DNA from: Atribacterota bacterium | Lineage (GTDB): Bacteria > Atribacterota > Atribacteria > Atribacterales > Caldatribacteriaceae | DNA length: 40,691 nt | NCBI GenBank assembly: GCA_039638595.1 | Contig: JBDIWM010000015.1 | Location: forward strand, 1 to 40,691 | Reading direction: 5' to 3' | In this document: positions 24,601 to 40,415 of the stretch, in pieces | Numbering within the stretch: position 1 is the stretch's first letter | How the letters are laid out: each line of letters opens with the position of its first letter | Program-made: the position numbers and the translations under genes | Notes under the pieces: generated by a model | Databases searched by the model: none | Seen by the model: only the letters and a program-made list of their open reading frames with translations | What the model was told of the DNA's origin: nothing

Positions 24601-25440
24601 TCAGTACTCTTCAGGCATATTCTGTAATTCCTCGTACGAAAAAACCGGTCCGTCTTTACAGACGTAGTAAGGACCGATGTTACACCGACCACACTTACCA
24701 AGACCACACTTCATCCGCATTTCCAGAGTGGTGATAATACGGTTTGCCTGAAAACCCATTTCAAGGAGCGTTTTAACGGTAAATTTTATCATAATTGGTG
24801 GTCCACATACGAGGGCATCGAAATTTCGTGCATCGATACGTAATTCTTTCAGTACTTCTGGGACAAGTCCCACTCTTCCATTCCAAGAATTTTCTCCGCG
24901 ATCCACGGTAACAAGAAGCGAGAGATCCTTCCGCTTCCCCCAAGCCTCCAATTCCCAACGAAAAACAAGGTCCTGAGGCGTCCTGGCTCCATAAAGGATA
25001 AAGACTTCACCAAAGTCCTTGCGGTACGGAGCACTCAGGACATAATTGATGAGGGAACGAAGTGGAGCAAGTCCAATCCCTCCTCCAACAAAGAGGAGGT
25101 TTTGTCCCTTAAGTGAGTCAATCGGAAAACCATTTCCATAGGGACCTCGCACTCCAATAAGCTCTCCAGGATTTAGTCGATGGAGTGCTTCGGTAACCGT
25201 ACCAGTTCTTTTAATACTGAATTCCAAGAGTACCTCTTGAGTGGGCGAAGAAGTGATGGAAAACGGTGCTTCTCCTTTTCCGGGGACAAAAACTTCAGCA
25301 AACTGACCAGGACGATACTCGAAATCCTGGGGGCGTCGAACACGGAAAGTTTTAATATCTTTGGTTTCCTCAATGACTTCCTGAATTAGAACTAATTCAG
25401 GAAGATAGATGTTCTTGACAGGTACGGATAGAGTATCCAA
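24601..25440 (-). CDS. FlxA-like FAD/NAD(P)H reductase with [2Fe-2S] tail
   Basis: A ferredoxin-NADP reductase-fold flavoprotein of the sulfhydrogenase-gamma/AsrB/FlxA group. RPGQFAEV (43-50) and APFSITSS (58-65) bind FAD. GGGIGLAPLR (119-128) and VCGPPIMIKF bind the nicotinamide nucleotide. C245, C250, C253 and C261 (CxxxxCxxCx7C) bind a [2Fe-2S] cluster of the dihydroorotate dehydrogenase electron-transfer type. It would exchange electrons between NAD(P)H and the two ferredoxin-like neighbours. The start is TTG 25440, inside the preceding gene (44 bp overlap). Context with an FlxB-, FlxC- and FlxD-like set next to HdrA points to an NAD(P)H dehydrogenase module for Hdr rather than to sulfite reductase. 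Confidence 0.82.
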   Translation of the reverse strand: MDTLSVPVKNIYLPELVLIQEVIEETKDIKTFRVRRPQDFEYRPGQFAEVFVPGKGEAPFSITSSPTQEVLLEFSIKRTGTVTEALHRLNPGELIGVRGPYGNGFPIDSLKGQNLLFVGGGIGLAPLRSLINYVLSAPYRKDFGEVFILYGARTPQDLVFRWELEAWGKRKDLSLLVTVDRGENSWNGRVGLVPEVLKELRIDARNFDALVCGPPIMIKFTVKTLLEMGFQANRIITTLEMRMKCGLGKCGRCNIGPYYVCKDGPVFSYEELQNMPEEY

Positions 25441-26410
25441 TGTGTTTCGCCATCCTTTCCACTACTTCTCGAATGTCCCAATTCACTGGACAAATTTCCC
25501 GGCAAATTCCACATCCCACACATCCATAGTATCCTTCTCGCAGCGGAAGATAAGAAAACTTGTGCATAACCCTCTGTCGCACTCGTTCCTTTCCGGTGGG
25601 GCGAGGATTATGCGAAGAAGCGTGTAAAGTAAACTTGGGAAACATACAACTGTCCCAGGTTTTTAGGGCCAAACCTTGTAACCTTCCGTCCACAGACAAG
25701 TCAAAACAGTAACAGGTAGGACAAAGAAAAGTACAGGCACCGCAATTGATGCATCGCCAGGTCAATTCTTTCCATATCGTTTCCTCAAAGTGTGCATAAA
25801 GCTTTTGGGGAAAATCAGGCGGTAAAGACGGCGGGAGTTTGGCTTTGAGTTCTTCTTCTGCAAACATCAGGGCCTTCCTTTGCTCGGCGTCGATTCTCTT
25901 TCCCTCTTCAAAAAGCGCGAGGTCATCATTTTCCACATAGAGTCTTTCCTGGAAAGGGAAAACAAAAATACTCTCTTTATCTCGCCATAGAGGGCTACCC
26001 CCCACAAGGGAACAGAAACAAGTTTCTGGCATAGTGGAGCAACCGAGAATGACAAGACGAAGGTTTTTTCTTCTCTGCCAGTAATTTTTATCGACGTAGT
26101 CTTTTTTCAAAAAATTGCCATCCAAAACTTCAACCACCGCTTTCGCTTCGCAGGGAAGGAGGAAAAGGAAACGCAAAGTGGAATCATTTCCTGCTGTTTC
26201 TGTCAATTTCCAGCTTCGATCCTGAAAAGAAAACCGATACACTTCCTCCCATTCTGGAAAAACGACCTCTTTCGGTGTTTTAACCACTCTCAAACCCTGG
26301 GGAAGAAGTGTACAATACATTTTTTGTGCCTGCTCGGTGACCAGGAACGAATCACTGTGCTCGGCCACCTTTTTCCTGAACGTTTCCAGAGTAATAAGTT
26401 TTTCTCTCAT
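25397..26410 (-). CDS. FlxB-like two-[4Fe-4S] electron-transfer protein
   Basis: A 337-residue member of the hydrogenase-beta/AsrA/FlxB group. A unique N-terminal domain carries extra cysteines (GCSTMPETCFC region). Two clusters follow, numbered from the longer frame: C222/C225/C228/C232 (CINCGACTFLCP) and C299/C302/C305/C309 (CVGCGICREICP). It should wire the FlxA-like flavoprotein to the rest of the complex. I chose ATG 26410 because GAGGG lies six bases upstream; the ATG at 26416 touches the ribosome binding site. It follows the FlxC-like gene by a few bases. The same fold serves in sulfhydrogenases and anaerobic sulfite reductases, so assignment to Flx rests on neighbours. Confidence 0.8.
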   Translation of the reverse strand: MREKLITLETFRKKVAEHSDSFLVTEQAQKMYCTLLPQGLRVVKTPKEVVFPEWEEVYRFSFQDRSWKLTETAGNDSTLRFLFLLPCEAKAVVEVLDGNFLKKDYVDKNYWQRRKNLRLVILGCSTMPETCFCSLVGGSPLWRDKESIFVFPFQERLYVENDDLALFEEGKRIDAEQRKALMFAEEELKAKLPPSLPPDFPQKLYAHFEETIWKELTWRCINCGACTFLCPTCYCFDLSVDGRLQGLALKTWDSCMFPKFTLHASSHNPRPTGKERVRQRVMHKFSYLPLREGYYGCVGCGICREICPVNWDIREVVERMAKHIGYSIRTCQEHLSS

Positions 26411-26421
26411 GATCATCCCTC

Positions 26422-27360
26422 TTACCTGATGAACTCATTTGGATCATTCTCCCGATAGGTGAGAAGCGGTGGTTCTTTATCAGGGTTGACGCCAGCTTCA
26501 AAATCAAAGTTTTCCCGAATTAACTCCTCAACCTTACAGGGCAAAAGGGCAATGGGAATACCGACTGGACAGGCTCTTTCACAAGCCCCGCATTCTACAC
26601 ATCGTCCTGCCATGTGGAGGCTTCGTCCAATGTGGAAAAGCAAATTTTCATTGGGCGTTGCTGCTCCGCTCAACCAGTAGGGGCGTTGCATTTCGGCGAA
26701 ACACTCCTTACAGTAGCACAAAGGGCAAGCATTTCGACACGCGTAACAGCGAATGCATTTTTTGGACTCCCCAGCAAAAAACGTCCACCGTTCTTCTCTA
26801 GAAAGTGTATCAACTTTCTTTAGAGCATTCTGATTCCATCGTTCCCGGGGGATGTACTGAACCTCCTGGCCTACTAAGTAGTCATAAAGCGGAGGATTGG
26901 GATGAAGACACCGCTGACAGGTTGCATCTAAAAAAGGACCAATGCTCATGGTCTTTCCTCGAAAAGTAAAGCTATCTAAGTGCCATTCAAAATCCGAGGG
27001 CCGAACTGATCCGAAATGTTCCTCAAGTTTTTTTCGGTCTACCATTCCGTAACAGGGAATCCCAGCGATAACGAGGTTTTCCCGTTTGACCTGTCTCTCT
27101 CGAATGAGTACCATGATTGCTCTCACATCGCAGGCCTTAGCAAAGATGGCGACCTTTCTCTCTTTTGCGTTTCTATCCAGGAGGTACTTGACGAGGTTAT
27201 GTCCACAAAAATGATTAAAAGTGAGCTGGGTAACATCTTCCTTTTTCTGACACAAAAATGGGCGAGCTCGAAAAGGAAGAGTACCATGGGCATAACCAAT
27301 GATCCATTCGACCTCACCAAGGATTTTGACGCTCAACGCACGGATTTCTTCTTCATACAT
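26422..27360 (-). CDS. FlxC-like two-[4Fe-4S] protein
   Basis: The 312-residue protein has an N-terminal domain resembling FrhB-related proteins (KVAIFAKACDVRAI, LVIAGIPCYG). Two ferredoxin motifs follow: C202/C205/C208/C212, followed by CYCKEC, and C254/C257/C260/C264. Such proteins connect NAD(P)H-oxidising flavoproteins to HdrA through an MvhD-type subunit in FlxABCD-HdrABC systems. It overlaps the MvhD/FlxD gene by 8 bp and is separated from the FlxB-like gene by a few bases. FrhB-type flavin binding cannot be confirmed by eye. Confidence 0.75.
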   Translation of the reverse strand: MYEEEIRALSVKILGEVEWIIGYAHGTLPFRARPFLCQKKEDVTQLTFNHFCGHNLVKYLLDRNAKERKVAIFAKACDVRAIMVLIRERQVKRENLVIAGIPCYGMVDRKKLEEHFGSVRPSDFEWHLDSFTFRGKTMSIGPFLDATCQRCLHPNPPLYDYLVGQEVQYIPRERWNQNALKKVDTLSREERWTFFAGESKKCIRCYACRNACPLCYCKECFAEMQRPYWLSGAATPNENLLFHIGRSLHMAGRCVECGACERACPVGIPIALLPCKVEELIRENFDFEAGVNPDKEPPLLTYRENDPNEFIR

Positions 27361-27793
27361 GGGAAGAAAACTCCTTTACCATCTTTTTGGAAGGACCGAT
27401 CCGCTTCACACTTTCCACCACATCCTGCACTACTTGGGCAAACCGCTGCCCTTCGGAAGCCGAAACCCAGGAAAATTGAACGCGCTCCTCTTCTACGCCC
27501 AGCCAATTCAAGAGTTCCTTAAGGAGAAAGAATTTCCGACGGGCAAAGTAGTTTCCACTGAAGTAATGGCAATCTCCTGGGTGACATCCTGAAACCAGCA
27601 CCCCATCGGCACCTTCACGGAGCGCTCTGAGAATGTATAGTGGATTTACGGCACCTGAACACGGCACACGGATGACCCGAACATTGGGAGGATACTGAAT
27701 CCGACTCACACCAGCAAGGTCTGCCCCAGCGTAACTACACCAGTGACAGAGAAACGCCACAATTTTAGGTTCCCATTGATTTTCGTTTACCAT
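27353..27793 (-). CDS. MvhD/FlxD-type [2Fe-2S] electron-transfer subunit
   Basis: The 146-residue protein carries the full MvhD motif set: CHWCSYAGADLAG (C16/C19), VIRVPCSGAV (C45) and SGCHPGDCHY (C70/C75). MvhD passes electrons from an input module (hydrogenase, formate dehydrogenase or Flx) to the HdrA flavin. The gene overlaps the stop of the giant HdrA by 7 bp and the FlxC-like start by 8 bp, exactly where an adaptor between HdrA and Flx proteins would be expected. It is distinct from the second, degenerate MvhD-like gene at 34.3 kb. Confidence 0.88.
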   Translation of the reverse strand: MVNENQWEPKIVAFLCHWCSYAGADLAGVSRIQYPPNVRVIRVPCSGAVNPLYILRALREGADGVLVSGCHPGDCHYFSGNYFARRKFFLLKELLNWLGVEEERVQFSWVSASEGQRFAQVVQDVVESVKRIGPSKKMVKEFSSHV

Positions 27794-30700
27794 GAGAGGT
27801 ATTCCACCTCCGAGAGGATTTGCTCCGGAGCAAAACCCTGTACCGTGATAGCACCACTCTTACAGGTTGCACTGCACAATCCACATCCTTTGCAGAGAGC
27901 GGGATTCACTTCAGCCACGTTCTTTTCAAAATTGATCCGGACAGCTCCGTACTGACACACTCGTTCACAGTCCCCACAAGCCGTGCACCAACGTTCCATG
28001 ACCCTGGCAATTTGGGCCTCAGCATGAATGATTTCCTTGCTCAAGATGGTCATAAGGCGAGCAATACAGGCTTTTGCCTGAATCATGCTTTCCTGAGCCA
28101 ACTTGGGGCCATGAGCTAAACCGCAGACAAAAACGCCTTCTGTGGCAAAATCCACCGGACGAAGTTTCACATGCGCTTCAAGGAAAAATCCATCTTGATT
28201 AAGTGGAACCTTGAAAATCTGGGCCAATTCCCGATTTCCAATTTCAGGCTCAATACCAGTGCTAAGGATAAGCCAGTTTGCTGGTAAATTTATTTCTTCA
28301 TCCAGAATAGTTGTTCGCACCCGCACCAAGAGTTGATTATCCTCACGGAAAACCACCGGATTATCACCATCCGCAAAGGGGATAAAAACCACACCCATTT
28401 GGCGAGCTTCCCGGTAGTACCGTTCGTAAAGACCATAACTGCGAATATCGCGATAGAGGATATACACTTCCATTTCGGGATAGAGTTTTTTAATTCTTAA
28501 TGCGTTTTTAATGGCTGTAAGACAACAAACCCGGCTACAGTACGGATGCTCCGTGTTTCGAGAACCTACACATTGAAGCATAACCACTTTTCCAGGTTGG
28601 GAGAAGCCTTCTTTTCCAAGGATTTTTTCCAGTTCAGTTTGAGTCATCACTCTCGGGTCTTCTCCATATAGGAATTCTTTAGGATGGTACGATATCCCTC
28701 CAGTTGCCAAAATCACTCCTCCATGTTTTATGGTTTTTATCTGTCCATCCTCTTCAATCACCGTCTCAAAATTGCCCACAAAACCGCTACTTTCCTTGAC
28801 CCTGCTTTTGACCATAACGTGAATTCGAGGATGGTTGCTGACTTTTGCTGCGAGTTCGTTTTTAATCTGAACAAGGTTCTGCCCTTCCACAGTGAAGTAC
28901 TCACGAAATTCCCGTAATCTCCCTCCTAGCTCTTCTTCTTTTTCAATTAAGTACACTTCCAGCCCTTGCTGCGCTGCTTCCCAGGCAGCCACCATGCCTG
29001 AGAGTCCACCACCAACAACCAGTACAGATTTCTGAATGGCCAGAGGTACGGAAACCAAAGGCTCAAGAAGAGAAGCTTTGGCAATGGCCATAGCCACAAG
29101 ATCTTTGGCTTTTTCGGTAGCTTCCTTAGGCCATTCCTGATGTACCCAGGAACACTGATCGCGGATGTTAGCCATCTCAAAAAGATAAGGATTGAGCCCT
29201 GCTTCCCGGAGGGTTTCCCGAAAAAGCCCTTCGTGAGTTCGCGGAGAACATGAGGCAACAATGACTCGATTCAAGGCATACTCACGAACTTTTTCCTTAA
29301 TCCGTTCCTGAGTATCCTGAGAACAAGTGTACAGGTTTTCTTCGGCGTAAACGACACCAGGAAAACTCCGTGCCCACTCTACCAGCACACTTGTATCAAT
29401 AATGCCAGCAATGTTAATCCCACATCGGCAGATAAAAACTCCAATGCGCACTGGTTCTGTGCTCACATCTCTTTCTATCGGGTACTCTCTTTCCCGCACT
29501 TCACTGAAGCGCGCGGAGTGAAGGAAAGAAGCCACTTCACAGGCACAAGCACTGGCCTCCTGAACTGTATCCGGAATATCCTTGGGAGAGGATATGGTAC
29601 CACAGAGAAATATCCCTTCTTTTGTGGAATGAATGGGAGAGGAAGCGTCGGTATACGGGAGTCCCCAGGGGGCAATGGATAAACCAAGGTTTTCCAGCTT
29701 TTCCTGTTCTTCTTGGGAAATGTGCAATCCTACCGAGAGCACCACAAGATCGAAAACCTCTTTCTTCACCAAACCACGTTCATCAACATAGGTCACTTCC
29801 AAGTCACCGTTTTCTAACTCACGGACATTCCCAACTTTTCCCTTGATGAACCGAATTCCCTCTTTTTTGGCTCGTTCATAGTAACGTTCAAAGTCTTTTC
29901 CGTAAGCTCGGACATCGATAGCAAAAACAGCCACTTCAAGAATCGATTTTTCTTCCCTTTCATCAACTAAAGGCAAGGAGGTTTCACAACCACACAGAGC
30001 ACAAGCGCTCTCTGCCCTCTTTTCCACCGCTAAGTGTTCTTTGGCCACCAAAGCTTCTTTAATGGCATACATACAACACACCGACGAACAGTAGGAATGG
30101 CCCCGCTCCTCATCACGAGAACCAACGCACTGGATAAAGGCAACTTTCTGAGGAACCTTTTTATCCGATGGACGGACGACTTTACCCTGAAAAGGACCTG
30201 AAGCATTGAGGATACGTTCGAAATCTAAGCTTGTGACCACATTGGGGTACTTCTTGTACCCCAATTCACGGTACGCTGTAGTCGGGTCGAAAATTTCGCT
30301 CCCAGTAGCAAAAACCAGAGCTCCCACCCGAATTTCTTTCGTGTATTCCCTTTCTTCGTGCTGAATGGCCCGGCGCTGGCACGCTTCCACACAGCGCATG
30401 CACTCCGAACACTCCCCACAGGAAAGACACCTTCTTGCTTCCTCTTGAGCTTCCTGAATCGTGTACCCTTGAGTCACCTCTAAAAACCCCTTGATCCGTT
30501 CATCAATAGCACGTTTTGGAGTTTGCACCCTTGCTATCCTTCGTTCTTTCCAGGGTAGATGCAATGGGGCGGGAATTTTGGATAACACGTCCCCATTTTT
30601 CCCCGCAAGATACCGGTCAATGGCAAAAGCAGCCCTTTTCCCATGAGCAATGGCTTCAACCAGAGTTGCTGGACCGAGCACAAAGTCTCCACCGGCGAAA

Positions 30701-32265
30701 ACACCCTTTCGGGAGGTATGAAGATTTTCATCCGTAGCCACAGTTCCCCAGGAAGTCAGTTCAACACCGCTCTCGGGAAGTTCAATCTTTTGACCAATGG
30801 CCACGATAAAAAGGTCTGCTTCCACTTCGTACTCCATCCCTGGAATGACCTCTGGTCTCCGACGCCCTGATTCGTCCGGAGCACAAAGCTTCATGACGTG
30901 GGTTTCCATCACAAGTTTCCCATCCTTTTCCAAAAACCTTTTGGGGCTGGCGCAAAAATAGAATTCTACCCCTTCTTCCTGAGCCTCTTCAATCTCTTCT
31001 TCGCGGGCTGGCATCTCTTCCCGGGAACGCCGGTAGTATATTGCTACTTTTTTGGCTCCCTTCCGCAAGGCACTTCGAGCGCAGTCGATAGCCACATTAC
31101 CACCGCCTATGACCACTACTGTCTCGGCGTCCGGCACTTCTTCGCCCTTATTCAGCAGCATGAGATAACTTAAACCATCCACAATCCGGGGGTGGTTTTC
31201 ACCTTCCACTCCTGCTTTCAGCCCTTTCCAGGCACCACAGGCCAGGTATACCGCCTGGAAACCGTTCTGGAACAAATCTTCAATTGTGAAATCTTTTCCC
31301 CATCTCTTCTGCAACGCAACCTGAATACCCATGTTTTTAATGGTATTAATCTCTCGTTCCACAATATCCCTTGGCAAGCGATACGCAGGAATCCCCAGCG
31401 TCATCATTCCACCTAAGCGATCCTGGGCTTCAAATACGGTGACCTGGTATCCCAGGAGTCGCAAAAAGTATGCACAGCTCAACCCACTGGGGCCACCGCC
31501 CACGATGGCAACACGCTTTTGTTGTTCTTCCTGTTTTTTAGGAAGAGCAACAATGTTGTTTTTCACTTCAAAGTCAGCCAAAAATCTCTTCAAATATGGA
31601 ATTCCCACTGCCTCATCAAGAAGTCCCCTTTGACATTGTTCCATACAGGGATGGTGACAAGCCCGACCACAGATACCAGGAAAGGGATTGTCCATACGCA
31701 CCACTCGAAGCGCTTCTTCAAAACGTCCTTCTCGGATTAAAGCTACATATCCTTCGGCTTTCTGTTCCAGAGGACAGGCAGCCTGACAGTTTGGTACACC
31801 TCTTTTTCTAATTCCAAAGGCACTGGGAAAAGCCTGAGGAAAAGGTCGATAAATGGCTTTACGTTCCGAAAGGTTTCCGTCGAATTCATTTGGTACCTTT
31901 ATTGGACAAACGACTGCACAATCTCCACACCCGGTGCACTTCGTTACGTCCACAAATCGGCTTTTCTGTCTTATTTTTACGGTGAAATCACCCGGCACAC
32001 CTTGAATCGACTCAACCTCAGCGTAAGAAAGAACCTCAATATTGAGATGCCTCCCACACTCCACCAGTTTCGGAGAAAGAATACACATGGCGCAGTCATT
32101 GGTGGGAAAAGTTTTATCGAGCTTGGCCATCATTCCCCCAATGGAAAAATCTTTTTCCACCAGGTATACCTTAAAGCCAGCATTTGCAAGGTCGAGAGAA
32201 GCTTGGATTCCTCCAATACCACCACCAACCACCATTACTGCTCCGCTGAGGTGGTTATCGCTCAT
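27787..32265 (-). CDS. hdrA: Giant HdrA-GltD-HdrA fusion flavoprotein
   Basis: About 1,490 residues from ATG 32265. Numbers here are from an ATG 15 bases upstream that lacks a ribosome binding site. In order: HdrA Rossmann fold VVGGGIGG (17-24); TNDCAMC (60-66); [4Fe-4S] C115/C118/C121/C125; a GltD/NfnB-like insert with cysteine-rich head (C165, C169, C204-C216), FAD fold GGGPSG (261-266), NADPH site VVIGGGNVAID and YRRSREEMPA (416-425); cysteine cluster 618-634; HdrA signature QCVGSR and YCSSVCC (717-736). A second HdrA follows, with CRCGINIAG (951), CSPRTHE (1011), VVGGGLSG (1088-1095), QCVGSR and YCSRVCC (1236-1253) and a C-terminal two-[4Fe-4S] ferredoxin (1432-1473). Three FAD sites and an NADPH site make it a candidate bifurcating hub. 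It overlaps hdrC by 11 bp. Confidence 0.92.
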   Translation of the reverse strand: MSDNHLSGAVMVVGGGIGGIQASLDLANAGFKVYLVEKDFSIGGMMAKLDKTFPTNDCAMCILSPKLVECGRHLNIEVLSYAEVESIQGVPGDFTVKIRQKSRFVDVTKCTGCGDCAVVCPIKVPNEFDGNLSERKAIYRPFPQAFPSAFGIRKRGVPNCQAACPLEQKAEGYVALIREGRFEEALRVVRMDNPFPGICGRACHHPCMEQCQRGLLDEAVGIPYLKRFLADFEVKNNIVALPKKQEEQQKRVAIVGGGPSGLSCAYFLRLLGYQVTVFEAQDRLGGMMTLGIPAYRLPRDIVEREINTIKNMGIQVALQKRWGKDFTIEDLFQNGFQAVYLACGAWKGLKAGVEGENHPRIVDGLSYLMLLNKGEEVPDAETVVVIGGGNVAIDCARSALRKGAKKVAIYYRRSREEMPAREEEIEEAQEEGVEFYFCASPKRFLEKDGKLVMETHVMKLCAPDESGRRRPEVIPGMEYEVEADLFIVAIGQKIELPESGVELTSWGTVATDENLHTSRKGVFAGGDFVLGPATLVEAIAHGKRAAFAIDRYLAGKNGDVLSKIPAPLHLPWKERRIARVQTPKRAIDERIKGFLEVTQGYTIQEAQEEARRCLSCGECSECMRCVEACQRRAIQHEEREYTKEIRVGALVFATGSEIFDPTTAYRELGYKKYPNVVTSLDFERILNASGPFQGKVVRPSDKKVPQKVAFIQCVGSRDEERGHSYCSSVCCMYAIKEALVAKEHLAVEKRAESACALCGCETSLPLVDEREEKSILEVAVFAIDVRAYGKDFERYYERAKKEGIRFIKGKVGNVRELENGDLEVTYVDERGLVKKEVFDLVVLSVGLHISQEEQEKLENLGLSIAPWGLPYTDASSPIHSTKEGIFLCGTISSPKDIPDTVQEASACACEVASFLHSARFSEVREREYPIERDVSTEPVRIGVFICRCGINIAGIIDTSVLVEWARSFPGVVYAEENLYTCSQDTQERIKEKVREYALNRVIVASCSPRTHEGLFRETLREAGLNPYLFEMANIRDQCSWVHQEWPKEATEKAKDLVAMAIAKASLLEPLVSVPLAIQKSVLVVGGGLSGMVAAWEAAQQGLEVYLIEKEEELGGRLREFREYFTVEGQNLVQIKNELAAKVSNHPRIHVMVKSRVKESSGFVGNFETVIEEDGQIKTIKHGGVILATGGISYHPKEFLYGEDPRVMTQTELEKILGKEGFSQPGKVVMLQCVGSRNTEHPYCSRVCCLTAIKNALRIKKLYPEMEVYILYRDIRSYGLYERYYREARQMGVVFIPFADGDNPVVFREDNQLLVRVRTTILDEEINLPANWLILSTGIEPEIGNRELAQIFKVPLNQDGFFLEAHVKLRPVDFATEGVFVCGLAHGPKLAQESMIQAKACIARLMTILSKEIIHAEAQIARVMERWCTACGDCERVCQYGAVRINFEKNVAEVNPALCKGCGLCSATCKSGAITVQGFAPEQILSEVEYLSW

Positions 32266-32749
32266 CTTCCCTCCCTCCATCTACAAAAGAGAGTTTTTCA
32301 ATCTCTTTCTGATAAAAACCGAGGTATCTAGGAAAGGAAAAAATGGCATTCTCAAAAAGGTAATCGAGGCAGTCGCGCCGTAGCTTCTGCGTTCTTCGAT
32401 CCAGGTCTTCGACAATCTCCTTCCACTCTTTGCTCACGTATCCCTCTTCTACGGCGATTTCTCGAAGGACTTTGAGAATGTTGGTGAATTCAACATCTTG
32501 GGGACAGTGGGCGGTACAGCGGTAACACCCCACACACATCCACAGGTACTTAGAAGTAAGCACCTTTTCTTTTTCCCCTAAAAGAACCTGATGGATAATG
32601 CGCCGGGGGTTAAAATTCGCCTCCACTTCCGCCACCGGACATCCAGCTGTGCACACTCCACAAGAAAAGCATACCAGCAACCCTTCTCCTCCGGTACGCG
32701 AAGCAACCCGGTACTTAAACTGTGGATCAATCAACCGTTCTTCTATCAT
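32255..32749 (-). CDS. hdrC: HdrC-type two-[4Fe-4S] subunit
   Basis: The 164-residue protein has two clusters, C27/C30/C33/C37 (CFSCGVCTAGCP) and C72/C75/C78/C82 (CVGCYRCTAHCP), in the HdrC spacing. A helical tail follows (KVLREIAVEEGYVSKEWKEI). In heterodisulfide reductases HdrC links HdrA to the catalytic HdrB; here no HdrB (CCG-domain protein) is encoded, and the gene sits two bases after metF. It is therefore likely to hand electrons between HdrA and MetF/MetV. The 3' end overlaps the start of the giant HdrA. Confidence 0.88.
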   Translation of the reverse strand: MIEERLIDPQFKYRVASRTGGEGLLVCFSCGVCTAGCPVAEVEANFNPRRIIHQVLLGEKEKVLTSKYLWMCVGCYRCTAHCPQDVEFTNILKVLREIAVEEGYVSKEWKEIVEDLDRRTQKLRRDCLDYLFENAIFSFPRYLGFYQKEIEKLSFVDGGREDER

Positions 32750-32751
32750 GG

Positions 32752-33669
32752 TTACTCAACCTCTCTTAAGGGTCGAGGGTATAGGCCACTCCTTTTGACG
32801 ATCTCCGGTACAATACTTTCCCAGGCAATGGCCATGATATGCACTCCTCGAACTCCTTCTATTCTCTTTAGTTCCTCGATAATTTCCACACAGATTTTAA
32901 CTCCTTCCTCCTTTGGGTCCTCTGACCTTTTCATCCTCTCCACGAGGTATTGAGGAATTACAAGACCAGGCACTTCTTTTTGCATATAGTGCATAGCCTG
33001 GATAGACTTCACTGGTATGACACCGGCAAGAATGAACGCCCTTTCATGAAGCTTCATCTTTCGTACTTCTTCCATGAAGCGGGAGAATGCCTCCACATCA
33101 AAAACAGCTTGCGTTTGAATAAATTGGGCTCCCGCCTGGATTTTTTTTGCCAGACGGTACACCCGGAACTCCATGGGATCAGCAAAAGGATTTTCCCCAG
33201 CGCCTAGAAAAACTTTGACTTCTCCTTTCAAATTTTCACCATTTTCAAAAATCTTTCTGTCACGCATGTTATGGAAAATACTGAGAAGCTGGACAGAATC
33301 GACGTCAAAAACATTCTTTGCCTGAGGATGGTTGCCCATACTCTGGTGGTCACCGGTAAGGCACAAGATGTTCTCAATTCCCAGAGCACAGGCTCCCAAA
33401 AAATCACTCTGGAGTGCAATGCGATTACGATCTCGACATACCATCTGCATTACTGGCTCTATTCCGCAATCCTGAGCGATAAGACAACTGGCAAGACTAC
33501 TTAAGCGCACAATGGCGGTCTGGTTATCGGTGATGTTTACCGCGTCAACATACCCTCGTAACTGCAAGCATTTTTTCTCAATGATACTTCTTTCGGTTCC
33601 CTTAGGTGGTCCCACTTCAGCCGTAACAGCAAAGATTCCCCTACCAAGAATTTCTGCTAAAAAGCTCAT
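32752..33669 (-). CDS. metF: Methylene-tetrahydrofolate reductase, catalytic subunit MetF
   Basis: MetF reduces 5,10-methylene-THF to 5-methyl-THF. The 305-residue TIM barrel shows AVTAEVGPPKGT at the N-terminus (catalytic Glu region), DAVNITDNQTA, LCLTGDHQSMGNHPQAKNVF (flavin-binding region) and AGAQFIQTQAVFDVEAF. It is the short FMN/FAD-type MetF that works with MetV in acetogens. Its ATG overlaps the metV stop as ATGA, and hdrC follows after two bases, so MetV, MetF and HdrC are stoichiometrically coupled by translation. No NADH-binding RnfC2-like subunit is adjacent. Confidence 0.94.
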   Translation of the reverse strand: MSFLAEILGRGIFAVTAEVGPPKGTERSIIEKKCLQLRGYVDAVNITDNQTAIVRLSSLASCLIAQDCGIEPVMQMVCRDRNRIALQSDFLGACALGIENILCLTGDHQSMGNHPQAKNVFDVDSVQLLSIFHNMRDRKIFENGENLKGEVKVFLGAGENPFADPMEFRVYRLAKKIQAGAQFIQTQAVFDVEAFSRFMEEVRKMKLHERAFILAGVIPVKSIQAMHYMQKEVPGLVIPQYLVERMKRSEDPKEEGVKICVEIIEELKRIEGVRGVHIMAIAWESIVPEIVKRSGLYPRPLREVE

Positions 33670-34316
33670 AATGTCACGTCCTCACGAAGCATCTTTCTCT
33701 GACCCCCATACCGAGAGGAAGACCAATTTTTGGGTGGTTGAATCGAGAGAAGCTCTTCCAGCCTACCCTGCATTTTCATACGGTCGTAGATGAGCTGCCA
33801 GGCACAATCCCGCTCTGACTTCACCTCACACTTACCACCTTTCGATCCTCCACAGGGACCATTGAGTAAGCTTTTGGCACAGCGAGTCACCGGACAAACA
33901 TTCCCAAAGTGATGAACGGTACAATCTCCACATCCTGAGCAGCGTTCTTCCCATATTCCCTGGTGGACCGGCGCCCCCATGAAGGTGGTATTGAGACCGG
34001 GTAAAACCAACTTATCAGGAAAACATTCGGAGAGAACCTGAGTTCCAATTCCACAGGCCAACGAAAGGAGCACCTCGTACGAAGCAATCTCCTTTTGAAG
34101 CACAAGGTTGAATTCCGGTTCGCACTGCCTCTCCGCCACCGAAGCTTGCGCTGTAAATCCTTTCAAACGGAGGATAGCAGCAAGTTCCCTGGCTTCTTTC
34201 TCCCCCCCAGACATGCATACCGTAACACAGGTCCCACAAGCTAAAACCAGCACACTCCGAGAAGTTTTTAGGTTATCTACGATTTCGCGAATGGGTTTCC
34301 TCTCTCCAACAATCAT
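33666..34316 (-). CDS. metV: MetV, cysteine-rich partner of MetF
   Basis: The 216-residue protein has the MetV pattern: ACGTCVTVCMSGG (C27/C30/C34), LACGIGTQ (C88), CSGCGDC (C126/C129/C132), NVCPVTRCAKSLLNGPCGG (C141, C146, C155), and C163 and C171. MetV binds iron-sulfur clusters and/or zinc and enables MetF to accept electrons in Moorella and other acetogens. ATGA overlaps exist at both ends, with the MvhD-like gene upstream and metF downstream. The metal content (zinc versus [4Fe-4S]) cannot be read from sequence. Confidence 0.93.
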   Translation of the reverse strand: MIVGERKPIREIVDNLKTSRSVLVLACGTCVTVCMSGGEKEARELAAILRLKGFTAQASVAERQCEPEFNLVLQKEIASYEVLLSLACGIGTQVLSECFPDKLVLPGLNTTFMGAPVHQGIWEERCSGCGDCTVHHFGNVCPVTRCAKSLLNGPCGGSKGGKCEVKSERDCAWQLIYDRMKMQGRLEELLSIQPPKNWSSSRYGGQRKMLREDVTL

Positions 34317-34684
34317 TTTGATTCTCCCACGGTGTTCAATAAGAGACTTTCAAGGACTCTCTGAATCTCTCCCACCTTTTCGGCTGTGACCAACACACAC
34401 GCAACTTTCTTATCGATGTCCGCTTCTTTTAGAAGAGTATTCACTCTTTGAGTTTTCCGAAATGCAAAATCACTTCCTCGCTGATTCACACAACTTCCCA
34501 AAGGACAGCCCGCCAAAATCAAATACTGATAGCCGTTTTCCAAAACCTTCAACATCATTTCCTCATTAACCACCCCTAAGCAGGGGACAGCCATAACGTC
34601 CATTTCATGCTCTGGAAATACCTCAAGAAAGCGGAGGAGCGCCGTAAAACCGCCTTGATTACAACCAATCGATGCAATCCTCAT
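34313..34684 (-). CDS. Divergent MvhD-like subunit
   Basis: The 123-residue protein aligns by eye to MvhD: IGCNQGG where FxCNWC is expected, VPCLGVVN (C35), and AGCPLGSC (C60/C65). Compared with the FlxD-like paralogue in this window, the second cysteine of the first pair is missing and CHPGDC has become CPLGSC. Four cysteines remain, enough for one [2Fe-2S] cluster. It is joined by ATGA overlaps to the HdrA-like half upstream and metV downstream, suggesting it wires the upstream HdrA-like proteins to MetV/MetF. Confidence 0.78.
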   Translation of the reverse strand: MRIASIGCNQGGFTALLRFLEVFPEHEMDVMAVPCLGVVNEEMMLKVLENGYQYLILAGCPLGSCVNQRGSDFAFRKTQRVNTLLKEADIDKKVACVLVTAEKVGEIQRVLESLLLNTVGESK

Positions 34685-36096
34685 TGTTCTTCACTCCAGG
34701 TAGACTTGATAAAGAAAAAATCTTCGGTATACAGGCTATTGATTCCGATAGCTGAGGCAGGACAAAAAGCCATACAGATACCACACAAATGACACTGTTC
34801 CCAGTTAATCCGGGCTTTTTTTCTCTTGCTCTCTCCCTCGATACTGACGGCTCTCCAGGGACAGGTTCGAAAACAAGTGAGACAAAGCACACATTTTTCC
34901 TCATCGACTGAAGCACATTCGGAAAGAGTAAGCCTTCCCTGGTTCAAGTACTCTTCCACTGCCTGGGCAAGCTGTAGGAAGTTGTCCTGATCACGTCGGG
35001 AGAAGACGAATACCCCATCAAGAAACGAAGAAAAAGGTGGTAAATTTGGGTTCTCAAGGTCGCCAAATTCCTCTTCTTCCTTTTCTCCTTTCCACCAGGG
35101 TATGGCGGGAAAGGGAAGATATGTTCGTCGAGGCACATAGATCACCCAGTCTGCTCTGATTTTGAGGCTGTATCCATCTCTTTCAGTTTCAAACTCCACC
35201 CAAGCTCCTTGCATTTCTAAAGTAGGTTGTAGCTTCACCGCATCCATCCTGACTTTTTCAAATAAAACTCCCTGATTTCGAGCCTCGCGATACTCTTGCT
35301 CTAAGGAAGCACCAGCCACTACGATTTCCTGGGCCAAAACGAAAACTTGTGCTCGTTCCCTCTCGGCCAGGCGCCGAGAAAGCCCAAAGACTTCTTTCCA
35401 ATCCTCCAACAATGAGGAACTATCTGGAGGCACAATGAAAACAAGGGTTTTATTTCGCATCGTCTTTCGAGTCATACCATTCTTAAATTGGTTAAGGGGA
35501 AGTATTCGTCTTGTTTCTTCGACCTCAGGAGGAATAAAAAGCGGTGGTTTTTCATCCCATTCAGGAAGAAGAATGATTGCTCCTACTGTTTCCCCTGAAG
35601 GGGAATCATAGAGAAGAAAGTTTATTCCCTCTCTTTTTACCAGAAGCGGTTCCTTTCTCACAATGTATGGAATATCCAAGCGGGACAGTGCTTCTTCCAG
35701 CATCGTCTCTCGACGAGGAGTAACGAGCACTCGTTTTTCGGGCAGAAGCTGAGTAGCCTTAACAGAGGGGGGTTTCTTTTGCCTTTTTATAGCATCCATA
35801 AAGAAATGTTCGAATGTTTGTAGAGCCTTGGTGGGGAAAGCATGCTGTATTTCTTCCCAGGGGAAAACCCTGATTTTCAATGGATTTACCTTTCTTTCTA
35901 GAGCGAATCTGAGCGTTCGCTCTCTATCCCAGGAAAAACTGTCAGTTAGAATAAAGATTTCCTCAAAAGATTCAGGAGAAAAATCTTCATCGTATCTTTT
36001 CACTTTTATGTCAATCCCTGTTTTCTTTTGCACTTCCCAAATCCAGGAAGGTGATACGCTCCAATTGTCTGTATAAAGCCAGAGTGCTTTCCTCAA
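34681..36096 (-). CDS. Divergent HdrA C-terminal-half-like protein with two [4Fe-4S] clusters
   Basis: The 471-residue protein ends in a dicluster ferredoxin (C402/C405/C408/C412 and C435/C438/C441/C445). The central part (RAQVFVLAQEIVVAG, YREARNQGVLFEKV, WVIYVP) parallels the region of HdrA that follows the CCxxxIK motif, as seen in the giant HdrA (YREARQMGVVFI). The N-terminal 130 residues look like a Rossmann-type segment but lack GxGxxG and all HdrA cysteines. It starts with TTG, overlapping the stop of the upstream HdrA-like gene (TTGA), eight bases after GGAGG. I read it as one half of a split, diverged HdrA; the function of its N-terminal part is unknown. Confidence 0.68.
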   Translation of the reverse strand: MRKALWLYTDNWSVSPSWIWEVQKKTGIDIKVKRYDEDFSPESFEEIFILTDSFSWDRERTLRFALERKVNPLKIRVFPWEEIQHAFPTKALQTFEHFFMDAIKRQKKPPSVKATQLLPEKRVLVTPRRETMLEEALSRLDIPYIVRKEPLLVKREGINFLLYDSPSGETVGAIILLPEWDEKPPLFIPPEVEETRRILPLNQFKNGMTRKTMRNKTLVFIVPPDSSSLLEDWKEVFGLSRRLAERERAQVFVLAQEIVVAGASLEQEYREARNQGVLFEKVRMDAVKLQPTLEMQGAWVEFETERDGYSLKIRADWVIYVPRRTYLPFPAIPWWKGEKEEEEFGDLENPNLPPFSSFLDGVFVFSRRDQDNFLQLAQAVEEYLNQGRLTLSECASVDEEKCVLCLTCFRTCPWRAVSIEGESKRKKARINWEQCHLCGICMAFCPASAIGINSLYTEDFFFIKSTWSEEQ

Positions 36097-37079
36097 AGCT
36101 TTATCCTCCCTATCGTTTTTCGGACTCTCTGGCTAACTTGCCAGGCGCTATGCAGACTGCCCTCGATATCGCGAGGACCACAGGCAGTTCCGCAAACAAA
36201 AACTCTTTCCTGTGAAGTGGTCCCCTCACCATAATCTCTGATAAATCCCTCAGGAGTAAAATTGAGCCGTAACATCTCCCCAATTTTTTGCGTTCCTGGT
36301 GAGGGAACCATACCCACCGAAAGGATAACTGCATCATATCCTGAGGGCTCCTCGCCAGAGTTCCCTTCTAAAATCAAGAAAATCTTTCCGTCCTTTTCCT
36401 TCGCTTCAAAAGGCATTTGCCGTACCAGCCGAATTTTCTTTGTTGTTTCCCAAAGTTTCTCGGTCTTCTTTCCGACTATCTGGAGATCCATGTAGTAAAA
36501 GTCGATTTCCAGCTGAGGATACAGAAAGAGTAAATCCTCAGACAGACGCAGAGCATAGCGGCAGCACACTTGAGAACAGTATCCACGTTTCTCTTTAACG
36601 TTTCTTGAACCAACGCACTGTACAAATGCTATTCTCCTCCAGTGGGCAAACTTTTGAAAAATACCCTGGTTTAGACTCGTTTCAATTTCAAATCCGGTAT
36701 AAATATTTGGGAACTTTTTCCAACCTAAATTGGGTAATTCTCGAGCATCAAAAGGGGAAGCACCAGTGGCAACAACGAGAGCCCTTCCATTGAGAACTTC
36801 TCGATTGGTAAACAGGAAAAACATTTCTGCTTTCTTTTGCACTTCCTGAACCGTCCGCCCAGAGAATACCGGAAACTCTGGTTTTTTCCTCTTCACCGAG
36901 AGCGCTCTGCAAACCCCACAGTATAGACACTCTGAAGTGGCCTTACACCCCAGCTGCAAAGCAAGACCCCCTGGGGATCTTTCCTCCTCCAGAACGGCAA
37001 CCCGAAAATCACTCTGGAGATACTCTGCAGTTTTCAATCCTGCCACTCCTCCTCCTAAAATCAGGACGTCAAAATCCAA
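36093..37079 (-). CDS. HdrA-like FAD protein (short form)
   Basis: The 328-residue protein has the FAD fold ILGGGVAGL (7-15), a cysteine group C45/C51/C54/C57 where HdrA has its TNDCAMC region, the HdrA hallmark QCVGSR (154-159) with YCSQVCC (167-173), and a C-terminal FAD motif FVCGTACGPRDI. It lacks the ferredoxin domains of full HdrA, which may be supplied by the next gene. The start is TTG 37079 with AGGAGG eight bases upstream; fhs ends 20 bases before it. Position between fhs and MvhD-like/metV suggests a role in the MetFV electron path. Confidence 0.82.
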   Translation of the reverse strand: MDFDVLILGGGVAGLKTAEYLQSDFRVAVLEEERSPGGLALQLGCKATSECLYCGVCRALSVKRKKPEFPVFSGRTVQEVQKKAEMFFLFTNREVLNGRALVVATGASPFDARELPNLGWKKFPNIYTGFEIETSLNQGIFQKFAHWRRIAFVQCVGSRNVKEKRGYCSQVCCRYALRLSEDLLFLYPQLEIDFYYMDLQIVGKKTEKLWETTKKIRLVRQMPFEAKEKDGKIFLILEGNSGEEPSGYDAVILSVGMVPSPGTQKIGEMLRLNFTPEGFIRDYGEGTTSQERVFVCGTACGPRDIEGSLHSAWQVSQRVRKTIGRIKL

Positions 37080-37099: not shown

Positions 37100-38794
37100 T
37101 CAGAATAGACCAATCACGTTTCCTTCAGAATCAATATCAATTTTATTTCCTGCTGGCACAGAGGGCAATCCAGGCATGGTACGCATTTCACCACAAAGAG
37201 GATAAAGAAAACCAGCACCAATAGAGGGACGAATGTCCCGGATGGGAAGTTTGAAATTTCGAGGTCTTCCTTTTAACTTCGGGTCATGAGAAAGAGAAAG
37301 GTGGGTTTTCGCCATGCATATTGGGAGCTTATCCCAACCAAAGTCGGTAAATTGTTTTATTTTCTCCTCTGCCATGGGCTCATACACAACACCATCAGCA
37401 CCATACACTTTGGTGGCGATGATTTCAATTTTTTCCTTAATCGCAATGTCCAGAGGATAGAGGAACTGGAATCGATTCGGTTCCTCGCAGGCCTGGACAA
37501 CCGCTTCAGCAAGTTTCCGGCCGCCTTCTCCTCCCCTAGCCCATACCTCAGAAACTGTAGCCGCAAAGGCACCATTTTCCAGGGCAATCCTTTGCACTGT
37601 TTCAATTTCCCGGTCGGTATCGGTAGAAAAAACGTTAATTGCTACGACCACTGGTACCCCAAAAAGACGGGCATTCTCAATTTGCTTTATGAGGTTTTCT
37701 GACCCTTTTACCAGGGCATCAAGATCTTCCTTTATAATTTCTGCATCCAGGGGTTTCCCAGGCACCACCTTATATTTACCACTGTGCATCTTTAAAGCTC
37801 TGATGGAACAGACCATCACCACGCAATCAGGCTTAAGACCACTATAACGGCATTTAATATCCATGAATTTTTCCATCCCACAATCAGCTCCAAAACCACT
37901 TTCAGTCACCACGTACTCGCTCAATCTCAATGCAATCTGGTCCGCAATGATGGAACTATTCCCATGGGCAATGTTGGCAAAAGGTCCAGCATGCACAAAA
38001 CAGGGGGTATTTTCCAGAGTCTGCAAAAGGTTCGGCTTAATAGCGTCTCGAAGAAGCACCGTCATGGCTCCAGCACACTGCAAATCCTCCGCCGTAACTG
38101 GTTTTTTATCCTTCGTGTATCCAACTACAATTTTTCCTAACCTCTTGCGGAGGTCAAAAATATCCGTGGTTAATGCTAAAATTGCCATGACTTCTGAAGC
38201 CACCGCAATATCAAAGCCACTCTCCCGGGGAATCCCATTATCCTTTCCCCCAAGACCGAGAACGATCTTTCGCAAGGCACGATCACTGATGTCCACCACC
38301 CGAGGCCAGCTTATACTGAACTGGTCAATACCAAGTTGATTTCCATGAAAAAGGTGATTATCAATGAAGGCAGAAAGAAGATTATGGGCTGCCGAAACGG
38401 CATGGGTGTCCCCGGTCAGGTGAAGGTTAAAATCTTCCATAGGAACTACCTGCGAATATCCGCCCCCCGCAGCACCACCTTTAATCCCAAATACCGGACC
38501 CAGGGACGGCTGTCGAATGCAGACGATGCTCCTTTTACCAATTCTATTAAGAGCCATCGAAAGACCGATGGTGGTTACGGTTTTTCCCTCTCCCAGCGGA
38601 GTCGGAGTAATCGCGGTAACGTCGATATATTTGCCAAGTGGATGGTGGTGAAACTTTTTCAAAACTTCCAGTGAAACCTTTGCTTTATACTTTCCGTAAA
38701 GCTCAATATCCTCTTCCTCCAGACCTAATGACCGGGCAATTTCCGTGATAGGTTGCATTTCTGCTCTCTGGGCAATTTCAAGATCACTGAGCAT
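37100..38794 (-). CDS. fhs: Formate-tetrahydrofolate ligase
   Basis: Fhs makes 10-formyl-THF from formate, ATP and THF, the first folate step of the methyl branch; the reverse reaction yields ATP in syntrophic oxidisers. The 564 residues show ITPTPLGEGKT (62-72, ATP loop), RQPSLGPVFGIKGGAAGGG, NLHLTGDTHA, and TESGFGADCGMEKFMDIKCR. The ATG is preceded by GGGAGGGAG. An AT-rich 70-bp stretch between the terminator of the corrinoid gene and this start probably contains the operon promoter, though I cannot place -10 and -35 boxes with confidence. Confidence 0.97.
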   Translation of the reverse strand: MLSDLEIAQRAEMQPITEIARSLGLEEEDIELYGKYKAKVSLEVLKKFHHHPLGKYIDVTAITPTPLGEGKTVTTIGLSMALNRIGKRSIVCIRQPSLGPVFGIKGGAAGGGYSQVVPMEDFNLHLTGDTHAVSAAHNLLSAFIDNHLFHGNQLGIDQFSISWPRVVDISDRALRKIVLGLGGKDNGIPRESGFDIAVASEVMAILALTTDIFDLRKRLGKIVVGYTKDKKPVTAEDLQCAGAMTVLLRDAIKPNLLQTLENTPCFVHAGPFANIAHGNSSIIADQIALRLSEYVVTESGFGADCGMEKFMDIKCRYSGLKPDCVVMVCSIRALKMHSGKYKVVPGKPLDAEIIKEDLDALVKGSENLIKQIENARLFGVPVVVAINVFSTDTDREIETVQRIALENGAFAATVSEVWARGGEGGRKLAEAVVQACEEPNRFQFLYPLDIAIKEKIEIIATKVYGADGVVYEPMAEEKIKQFTDFGWDKLPICMAKTHLSLSHDPKLKGRPRNFKLPIRDIRPSIGAGFLYPLCGEMRTMPGLPSVPAGNKIDIDSEGNVIGLF

Positions 38795-38887: not shown

Positions 38888-39529
38888 TCAGTTAAAATGC
38901 AAAAGTTCCTTGGCCTTATCCACTGCAGAAGCTGCATCGGGTGCATACCCATCAGCACCAACTTCATCAGCAAACTTTTGGGTTACCGGTGCCCCACCAA
39001 TCATAATCTTTACCTTATCCCTGATACCAGCCTCGTTGAAAGCTTTGATGTTTTCCCGGATCTGCACCATGGTAGTGGTAAGAAGAGCCGACATGCCCAC
39101 CAGCTGAGGATCATTTTCCTTAACAGCCTGAATGAACTTTTCAGCTGGTACGTCAATTCCCAAATCAATCACTTCAAAACCTGCTCCTTCCATCATCATG
39201 GAAACCAGGTTCTTCCCGATGTCATGGAGGTCCCCCTTCACGGTTCCAATGACCATCTTCGCCATTGGTTTTACTCCAGTCTCTGAAAGTTTTGGCTTTA
39301 GAATTTCCATCCCTGCTTTCATAGCTCGAGCCGCAATGAGCACTTCGGGGACGTAGATTTCGTTGTTCTTAAACTTTACCCCCACCTCGTTCATTCCCTT
39401 AATGAGTCCACCAGTTAAAACATCTCCCGGAGTCATGCCCTCGTCAAGGGCTCTCTGAACCAACTCAGCTACTGCCTTAGCATTCCCAGCGAAAAGCTCC
39501 TGAGCAATCTGTTCCAGTACTTCTGCCAT
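38888..39529 (-). CDS. Methyltransferase cognate corrinoid protein (MtbC/MtmC type)
   Basis: The 213-residue two-domain protein has an N-terminal B12-binding-2 helical cap (KAVAELVQRALDEGMTPGDVL, YVPEVLIAARAM) and a Rossmann cobalamin domain with GDLHDIGKNLV, where His102 is the lower cobalt ligand, followed by GIDVPAEKFI and SALLTTTM. Such proteins carry methyl groups from methanol, methylamines or methoxy compounds to THF or another acceptor. The matching substrate methyltransferase is not in the window; AcsE or an unseen MtxB-like enzyme could be its partner. The ATG is preceded by GGGAGGG. It is divergent from the formate channel gene and ends in a terminator. Confidence 0.9.
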   Translation of the reverse strand: MAEVLEQIAQELFAGNAKAVAELVQRALDEGMTPGDVLTGGLIKGMNEVGVKFKNNEIYVPEVLIAARAMKAGMEILKPKLSETGVKPMAKMVIGTVKGDLHDIGKNLVSMMMEGAGFEVIDLGIDVPAEKFIQAVKENDPQLVGMSALLTTTMVQIRENIKAFNEAGIRDKVKIMIGGAPVTQKFADEVGADGYAPDAASAVDKAKELLHFN

Positions 39530-39548
39530 ATCGAAACCCTCCCTCTCT

Positions 39549-39621
39549 ATTATTTGAAAATAATATTAGCAAAAAAAAGGAGAAAAATCTATAAAATAGA
39601 TATATAATTTTAAAAAATTAT
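39549..39621. repeat. Three short inverted repeats in the divergent corrinoid/channel promoter region
   Basis: Three perfect palindromic elements follow one another: ATTATTT-GA-AAATAAT at 39549-39564, ATCTAT-AAA-ATAGAT at 39587-39601, and ATAATTTT-AA-AAAATTAT at 39604-39621. The last covers part of the TATAAT box of the plus-strand promoter. They may be operators for a regulator of both divergent genes. Their AT-richness means chance occurrence is more likely than for GC-balanced repeats. Confidence 0.5.
39603..39608 (+). promoter_or_regulatory. -10 box upstream of the formate/nitrite channel gene
   Basis: A consensus TATAAT lies 37 bases before the ATG. The matching -35 position holds GAGAAA, a poor hexamer, so the promoter may need an activator or an extended upstream AT-rich element. 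Confidence 0.4.
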
Positions 39622-39644
39622 TAAGTTATGAGAAGGAGGAAAAT

Positions 39645-40415
39645 ATGTCAGGAAAGGAGACTTTCGTCAAATGGTGTCAGGTTAAAAATCAAAAAGATGC
39701 CCTCAGCCTTTTTATTGGAGGAATTTTGGCTGGCGTGTACATCGGTTTTGCTAGTCAACTCTTCACTCTGGTCACGGCAGTGCCAGTTCTCTCGTTCGGG
39801 ATGACTCAACTTCTGGGAGGCGTGGCTTTCTCGGTAGGACTGGTCATGGTGGTCTTGGGCAAAGCTGATCTATTCACTGGAAACTGCCTTCTTTTTGCGC
39901 AGTGTTTCCATGGGTACCGCTACGTCCAAATAACCCTTTATAACTGGTTGGTTGTATACTTGGGAAATTTTCTGGGCTCTTTCTTTCTTGCTCTACTTTA
40001 CGCCCACTCCGGTCTTTTTAAAATGGGAGGAGGAGTGCTGGTACAGCGTATAGCAGATATTGCTCAGACTAAAATCAGTCTTACTTTTTCCGAGGCTTTC
40101 GTGAGGGGAATACTCTGCAACTGGTTGGTTTGTCTTGCGGTTTTCTTCTGTATCATGGCGGAAAACAACCTAAATCGTATTCTGGCCATTCCTGGCCCAA
40201 TCACCACGTTTGTAGCCCTCGGTTATGAGCACAGTATTGCCAACATGTACTTTTTCCCTGCAGGAATAATGGCACAAAAATACCTGGGAGAAGCATCACC
40301 CATCACCTGGGGTCAAGTCATTTTTACCAACCTTTTCCCAGTCACTCTGGGAAACATAGTAGGAGGAAGTTTCTTCGTAGGATTTCTGTATTGGATTATA
40401 CTCCGTAATGAGTGA
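39645..40415 (+). CDS. Formate/nitrite transporter family channel
   Basis: The 256-residue integral membrane protein has six hydrophobic segments. It carries the FNT landmarks GVYIGFASQL, GKADLFTGNCLLFA and GILCNWLVCLAVFF, and a C-terminal GYEHSIANMYFFPAG. FocA-type pentamers pass formate; related channels pass nitrite or hydrosulfide. Location beside the corrinoid gene and fhs favours formate exchange, since formate is the substrate of Fhs. The ATG follows AAGGAGG at a good distance. No signal of a partner formate dehydrogenase or pyruvate formate-lyase is present in the window. Confidence 0.88.
   Translation: MSGKETFVKWCQVKNQKDALSLFIGGILAGVYIGFASQLFTLVTAVPVLSFGMTQLLGGVAFSVGLVMVVLGKADLFTGNCLLFAQCFHGYRYVQITLYNWLVVYLGNFLGSFFLALLYAHSGLFKMGGGVLVQRIADIAQTKISLTFSEAFVRGILCNWLVCLAVFFCIMAENNLNRILAIPGPITTFVALGYEHSIANMYFFPAGIMAQKYLGEASPITWGQVIFTNLFPVTLGNIVGGSFFVGFLYWIILRNE

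Follow-up and report, generated by a model that had tools for sequence, protein, structure and literature searches.

The electron source or sink of MetVF, a methylenetetrahydrofolate reductase (MTHFR), is a standing question in the bioenergetics of acetogens and syntrophs. Four MTHFR types were counted in a 2026 paper (PMC13391211), and MetFVD without accompanying HdrABC has been recorded in a survey (PMC6085437). In the type IV enzymes of Moorella thermoacetica and Sporomusa ovata, MetVF belongs to an HdrCBA-MvhD-MetVF system (PMC9430772, PMC8760232). Residues E356 and K409 of HdrA are the signature of electron bifurcation (PMC9430772), and HdrA pairs, tandem or fused, whose two units have complementary losses are known from anaerobic methanotrophic (ANME) archaea and were also recognised in Moorella (PMC9012536). 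Here, we report on three genes, X1, X2, and X3, in a DNA stretch of 40,691 nucleotides from an Atribacterota bacterium of the Caldatribacteriaceae (assembly GCA_039638595.1, contig JBDIWM010000015.1, positions 1 to 40,691); the whole stretch is called the window below, and the genome carrying it is 2.1 Mb in size and 97% complete. As in the type IV systems, metV and metF of the window are linked to hdrC, a tandem HdrA (with a GltD insert as in Moorella), and mvhD. In contrast to the Moorella and Sporomusa systems, HdrB is missing from both the operon and the genome, and X1-X2-X3 is present as an extra set between fhs and metV. We propose, with a probability of roughly 0.6 and on sequence grounds, that X1-X2-X3 is one accessory electron-transfer module, a putative dedicated and non-bifurcating relay arm of MetVF.

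Two HdrA units and an altered MvhD

The three genes are coupled open reading frames on the minus strand (as are all the genes of the cluster), and each junction in the run X1, X2, X3, metV, metF is a 4-bp overlap. A preliminary description of this DNA had taken them for HdrA- and MvhD-like genes, and the family searches agree with this for X1 and X3. X1 (36093–37079; 328 aa, TTG start) is a minimal HdrA unit with a single thioredoxin-reductase-like (TrxR-like) domain for flavin adenine dinucleotide (FAD). It matches the NCBIfam HdrA2 model with an E-value of 9e-43 over model region 302–560, and its only full-length match is the HdrA-like subunit 6tjr (349-residue chain, E 2e-42); in its 328 aa there is no N-terminal HdrA iron-sulfur domain, no inserted ferredoxin, and no C-terminal ferredoxin. 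The hallmarks of HdrA are present, i.e., the TrxR-like FAD domain, GxGxxG, and CVGSR...C..CC, with all four cysteines in every X1. The FAD-binding loop GGGVAG (37038–37055; Pfam Pyr_redox_2, E 4e-12) contains the glycines G9, G11, and G14, which are invariant in 16 X1 sequences. The four-cysteine motif CKATSECLYCGVC (36909–36947) is diagnostic of the X1 clade: its general form CKx3-4CxxCxxC occurs in all correctly assigned X1 (the K is V or M in two), and was found in 0/42 sequences of HdrA_a, the first half of the tandem HdrA, and in 0/8 HdrA of the sHdr type. X1 is under purifying selection (dN 0.11, dS 1.2), so X1-X2-X3 is not a product of chance.

X2 (34681–36096; 471 aa, TTG start) is a pseudo-flavoprotein of the HdrA fold. 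It has a cysteine-free N-terminal HdrA-type domain, a TrxR-like domain without the FAD loop, and a C-terminal 2x[4Fe-4S] ferredoxin. The loss of the HdrA cysteines and of the dinucleotide loop, pointed out in the preliminary description, is real: no cysteine precedes residue 394 in the X2 of the window, and GxGxxG is found in 0 of the 16 Atribacterial X2. The ferredoxin tail (residues 395–452, 34741–34914; Pfam Fer4) keeps eight invariant cysteines, CxLCLTCxRxCP...CxxCGxCxxxCPA, in columns C402–C445. The CVGSR/CC cysteines are lost in X2 of other phyla as well (27/27) and are kept by all 41 HdrA_b, the second half of the tandem HdrA. A hidden Markov model search aligned residues 249–455 of X2 to 419–628 of HdrA2, not to an unrelated family. 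In hhalign comparisons the Atribacterial X2 family matched Bacillota X2 (probability P 99.9, E 3e-32) and HdrA_b (P 99.5, E 6e-23), in both cases over about residues 171–460, and Bacillota X2 matched HdrA_b over the whole length (P 100, E 2e-93). The AlphaFold2 model of X2 (pLDDT 82.5, pTM 0.73) retrieved complete HdrA chains as all of its top seven matches in Foldseek (5odc_A, E 1e-18, ~660 alignment columns). Because of these profile comparisons and the Foldseek matches, X2 is, as modeled, a complete HdrA-fold unit; the N-terminal domain is assigned by the fold match, hhalign covering residues 171–457.

X3 (34313–34684; 123 aa, ATG start) is MvhD/FlpD-like and scores above the cut-off of the FlpD/MvhD model PF02662 (E 2e-14). 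Its cysteines C8, C35, C60, and C65 are invariant, but the second cysteine of the MvhD CxxC is missing, and X3 thus does not carry the MvhD set of CxxC + C + CxxxxC. This is the altered MvhD of the preliminary description: CxxC is missing from 34/34 X3-type sequences and present in 37 of 43 MvhD-type ones. We use only this CxxC difference, since the deep branches of the X3/MvhD-domain tree are unresolved (few columns, long branches).

The order X1-X2-X3 is colinear with HdrA(a)-HdrA(b)-MvhD of the same operon. These paralogues are the tandem HdrA (27787–32280; 1497 aa, with NCBIfam HdrA2 in five stretches, PRK12771, and two TrxR-domain matches) and a canonical mvhD with CxxC (27353–27793; PF02662, E 3e-55). 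The tandem protein is of the Moorella kind with two TrxR-like units, (a) with the GltD insert and the E/K signature kept, and (b) with the N-domain and a C-terminal ferredoxin. In a tree of 117 TrxR segments, the X1 clade had a support of 99 in the Shimodaira-Hasegawa-like approximate likelihood ratio test (SH-aLRT) and was grouped with HdrA_a at 96; the X2 clade of other phyla (99) was grouped with HdrA_b at 98. Adding nine sHdr-type HdrA (one partial) gave the same topology, with X1 and HdrA_a together at 93. Both trees come from quick searches and carry no support values other than SH-aLRT, and their X2 rows are from other phyla; the X2 of the window is too diverged and was placed by hhalign. 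Compared directly, the X1 and X2 family profiles gave no match (P 1.3), and their relation runs through the HdrA halves. X1 and X2 are two HdrA units, each whole with different parts missing, which together form a pseudo-heterodimer, and, as judged from sequence, the paralogy between X1-X2-X3 and the tandem HdrA(a)-HdrA(b)-MvhD is ancient. Either the module split from the tandem HdrA before the sampled phyla diverged, or transfer has spread it. The earlier idea of a dedicated MetFV arm from the HdrA/MvhD core is well supported by linkage and tree, but to derive the arm from the operon's own bifurcating core would place its origin too late.

The preliminary description had further read X1 and X2 as one HdrA cut in two, and the adjacency and coupling of the genes, together with a C-terminal ferredoxin in X2 and none in X1, would fit a cut. 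Against this, X1 and X2 align to overlapping HdrA regions, the model of X2 by itself shows a full HdrA fold, and the tree puts X1 with HdrA_a and the X2 homologues with HdrA_b, by which we rule out a split gene and leave it a negligible chance. A QmoAB- or sHdr-like module is just as hard to credit, even if QmoB also has HdrA and MvhD parts and 6tjr, which X1 matches in full length, is an sHdr-type structure. QmoA/QmoB loci added to the tree fell outside the X1 and X2 clades and no membrane QmoC is encoded in the operon, while an sHdr origin conflicts with the lack of the four-cysteine motif in sHdr-type HdrA (0/8), with the single hdrC and no hdrB of the window, and with the position of sHdr-type HdrA outside the X1 clade. 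X1-like genes away from metV were mostly found in hdrC-hdrB-hdrA-hdrC-hdrB clusters and outside the X1 clade, as were the eight other intact 340-aa HdrA-like Bacillota genes that we inspected. Clusters of this sHdr type were noted at eight loci of our collection in Bacillota genomes.

Linkage to metVF and the absence of HdrB

Among 50 Atribacterota genomes, metV is present in 21, all in the taxonomic order of the window, and it was found in 0 of the 25 genomes outside that order. X2 of Atribacterota, full-length or broken by a contig end, occurs in the same genomes as metV, and X1-X2-X3 stands beside metV in identical gene order in every family of the order. Within the order, X1–X3 mostly share 33–55% identity vs 65–80% for metV and metF, i.e., X1–X3 evolve faster. 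In 200 sampled Bacillota genomes, the X1 clade lies beside metV/metF in 24/24 genomes having it; the wide occurrence without metFV that would speak against a dedicated arm did not arise. A scan of a genome collection, followed by neighborhood reading, placed the module beside metV in four further phyla (Fibrobacterota, locus L046; Verrucomicrobiota, L049; Spirochaetota, L051; Kiritimatiellota, L052). The sole member of the X1 clade found away from metV is at L048 (3928–7435), where X1-X2-X3 is followed by folD, the FAD loop of X2 is intact, and the contig holds no metV.

Bacillota loci usually read X2X3-metV-metF-X1 and lack hdrC, hdrB, and HdrA, and at ~20 Bacillota loci of this order the module genes are the only redox partner genes around metVF. 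In Kiritimatiellota (L052, 918 aa) and two Bacillota genomes, X1, X2, and X3 are fused into one protein of 917–980 aa directly before metV. We also noted other arrangements around metV. At four loci a ~700-aa GltD-like and FlpD-like protein is encoded directly upstream of metV, apparently another electron-input arm of MetVF. In Spirochaetota, four loci have a NuoF-like protein of ~400–1040 aa directly upstream of a more diverged metV-metF pair. Three loci have a distinct ~893-aa tandem HdrA beside metVF, with very long branches, without the GltD insert, and with a short MvhD-like protein.

A PF02754 search of the window's own genome returned 0 matches, i.e., no HdrB or other CCG-domain protein. 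HdrB is encoded in 28/28 metVF loci that have hdrC and the tandem HdrA but no X genes; it is missing from the hdrC and tandem HdrA loci of the window, all other Atribacteria, L049, L051, L052, and L110, and all of these have X. Because HdrA, HdrB, and MvhD each bind MetF in pulldowns from S. ovata (PMC9430772), we reason that a genome with HdrC but without HdrB would need another link. A strict mutual exclusion of HdrB and X is ruled out by three Bacillota loci with an X1-X2 or X1-X2-X3 fusion (L126, L147, and L148), which carry both. Between metF and hdrC these three loci also have a GcvH-like gene (lipoyl H-protein, by sequence reading; L126 10292–10711, L147 7464–7889, and L148 10499–10924), which may bear on a lipoate-linked MTHFR donor.

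A putative relay arm and its alternatives

Homology, paralogy, and the loss of domains can be read from the sequences, as can the linkage to metVF and the lack of HdrB; from these we infer complex formation, bound cofactors, and electron flow as follows. X1 and X2 would associate as do the two units of an HdrA tandem or dimer. The only FAD of the module would be held by X1, which would also have its own iron-sulfur site (four cysteines); X2 would be a flavin-less scaffold with the HdrA fold that offers a two-cluster ferredoxin tail, and X3 would act as an MvhD-like adaptor. Electrons could then pass through X1-X2-X3 between the NAD(P)H/flavin side (AsrAB-like, tandem HdrA, MvhD, and HdrC) and MetV/MetF, with the module taking over the coupling that HdrB gives in Moorella and Sporomusa. 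Bifurcation, if any, would stay in HdrA(a), and the direction might be either methylene-tetrahydrofolate (THF) reduction or methyl-THF oxidation.

Whether X1 is itself a second bifurcation site can be weighed at the signature residues. X1 keeps the glutamate (E133, codon 36681–36683) and has R178 (36546–36548) at the position of HdrA K409. The pair is E/R in 14/14 Atribacterial X1 vs E/K in 42/42 HdrA_a, and every X1 coexisting with a tandem HdrA is E/R, which weakly suggests that in the window X1 relays electrons through its flavin instead of forming a second site of bifurcation; X1 also has no inserted ferredoxin, used as the low-potential exit in methanogen HdrA. The intact FAD loop and glutamate argue for bifurcation, as do the stand-alone Bacillota X1, which often keep the lysine (E/K in 13, E/R in the rest). 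We consider bifurcation in X1 very unlikely; with E/R in place of E/K in X1, and with no flavin site in X2, a non-bifurcating relay is the likelier function of the module. The missing flavin site of X2, and its lack of HdrA cysteines outside the ferredoxin, would also suit a purely structural role, the module being a scaffold or dock that keeps MetVF in place on HdrA-HdrC while no electrons flow through it, and so would the faster evolution of X1–X3. A scaffold, however, would have no use for the residues that are invariant here: in X1 the FAD glycines and four cysteines, in X2 the eight cysteines of the ferredoxin, and in X3 four cysteines. In ~20 Bacillota loci the module is the only redox partner encoded at metVF, and we judge a scaffold quite unlikely. 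A second entry port, by which the module links MetVF to another donor or acceptor (free ferredoxin or a membrane carrier) and HdrA-HdrC serves NAD(P)H, giving two inputs, is also unlikely in our view, albeit a little less so. It draws on the 2x[4Fe-4S] ferredoxin tail of X2, on the Bacillota loci where MetVF has only X and no recognised NAD(P)H-binding partner nearby, and on the enrichment of S. ovata MvhD in membranes (PMC9430772); yet the conserved operon includes no membrane protein, and with HdrB absent, HdrC would be left without a known partner.

Some of our own results weigh against the relay arm and should be read alongside it. The X2 model superposes on HdrA with a TM-score of 0.5–0.66 and a root-mean-square deviation of 8–10, which is a match at the domain level only, and the fused X1-X2-X3 model has a pTM of 0.50, from which we claim no interface. 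The signature argument is weak because K to R is a conservative exchange, and bifurcation may not necessarily be abolished by it. Given L126, L147, and L148, X is not simply an HdrB replacement, and the HdrB-less loci with X may come from one or two transferred operons rather than from many independent events.

Surrounding genes and described relatives

The minus-strand cluster reads, in order, MtgC-like corrinoid protein, fhs, X1, X2, X3, metV, metF, hdrC, tandem HdrA, mvhD, Fe-S/FrhB-like, AsrA-like, AsrB-like, and folC. The MtgC-like gene comes first (38888–39529; NF047996, E 9e-71, below the cut-off of that model), and fhs, the formate-THF ligase gene, ends 20 bp upstream of X1 (37100–38794; PRK13505, E 3e-252). 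On the other side of the module are metV (33666–34316; PF12225, E 2e-36), metF (32752–33669; PF02219, E 6e-42), and hdrC (32255–32749; TIGR03290, E 8e-26), which encodes a soluble 164-aa protein and has no hdrB next to it. Three more redox genes of the operon (24601–27360) encode an Fe-S/FrhB-like protein of 312 aa and an AsrA/HydB-like protein of 339 aa, both named from family searches, and a flavoprotein of 279 aa labeled AsrB-like from sequence reading and synteny; together they are a probable input arm. The operon is flanked by a methyl-THF:corrinoid methyltransferase gene (22457–23257) and, at the other end, by the MtgC-like gene and a divergent FocA-like formate transporter gene (38888–40415). 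Two genes (279 and 282 aa) at 20742–22433, between hydF and the methyltransferase gene, matched no Pfam or NCBIfam family at our thresholds. Atribacteria have metF, but almost all of them lack CODH/ACS (PMC11227167); the methyl branch must therefore have a use other than classical acetogenesis. The flanking genes suggest methyl-group exchange and formate traffic around MetVF in this class.

As a module inherited together with metVF in several phyla, X1-X2-X3 offers concrete candidates for the subunits that make up the missing donor or acceptor link of MetVF. It is also an example of a tandem HdrA that duplicated into a second copy, one member of which became a flavin-less scaffold.

Among described systems, the tandem or fused heterodimeric HdrA pairs of ANME archaea (PMC9012536) likewise have two HdrA units with complementary losses and a complementary C-terminal ferredoxin, and the losses are split in a similar way: one unit is without the N-domain and has a cysteine near the FAD, and the other has the N-domain and is without that cysteine. 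All the ANME HdrA apparently keep their FAD residues. In the Atribacterial X2, by contrast, the FAD loop is gone, as are the cysteines of the N-domain; X1 has a four-cysteine motif of its own, and the module is tied to metVF. The HdrA-like subunit of Hyphomicrobium denitrificans (sHdr type, PDB 6tjr) is a minimal HdrA that equals X1 in size and domain content, but sHdr-type HdrA has two HdrB and two HdrC partners, and the eight Bacillota genes of this type are without CK..C..C..C and separate in the tree. QmoA/QmoB share with the module two HdrA-like proteins, one with an MvhD-like part; they differ in forming a separate clade, in their membrane partner QmoC, and in having no link to metVF. 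In syntrophic Bacillota, the HdrA and MvhD genes that Ca. Contubernalis alkaliaceticus (PMC10608574) and Ca. S. acetioxidans (PMC6295475) carry in their acs/metVF clusters are probably the same X2-X3 module, as inferred from the described gene order; those papers take them for components of an MvhD/HdrABC complex whose HdrBC genes lie elsewhere, and not for a separate paralogous clade. Within the open-licence literature, three points appear to be new: that X1-X2-X3 forms a clade of its own that is inherited with metVF, that Atribacteria have a flavin-less pseudo-HdrA, and that HdrB is absent. We see an even chance that X1-X2-X3 constitutes a fifth wiring type of MetVF beside the four counted so far, i.e., a heterodimeric HdrA/MvhD-type module that serves MetVF alone in many Bacillota and does so jointly with HdrA-HdrC, HdrB being absent, in Atribacteria and a few more phyla, and of which one half is a flavin-less pseudo-HdrA in Atribacteria.

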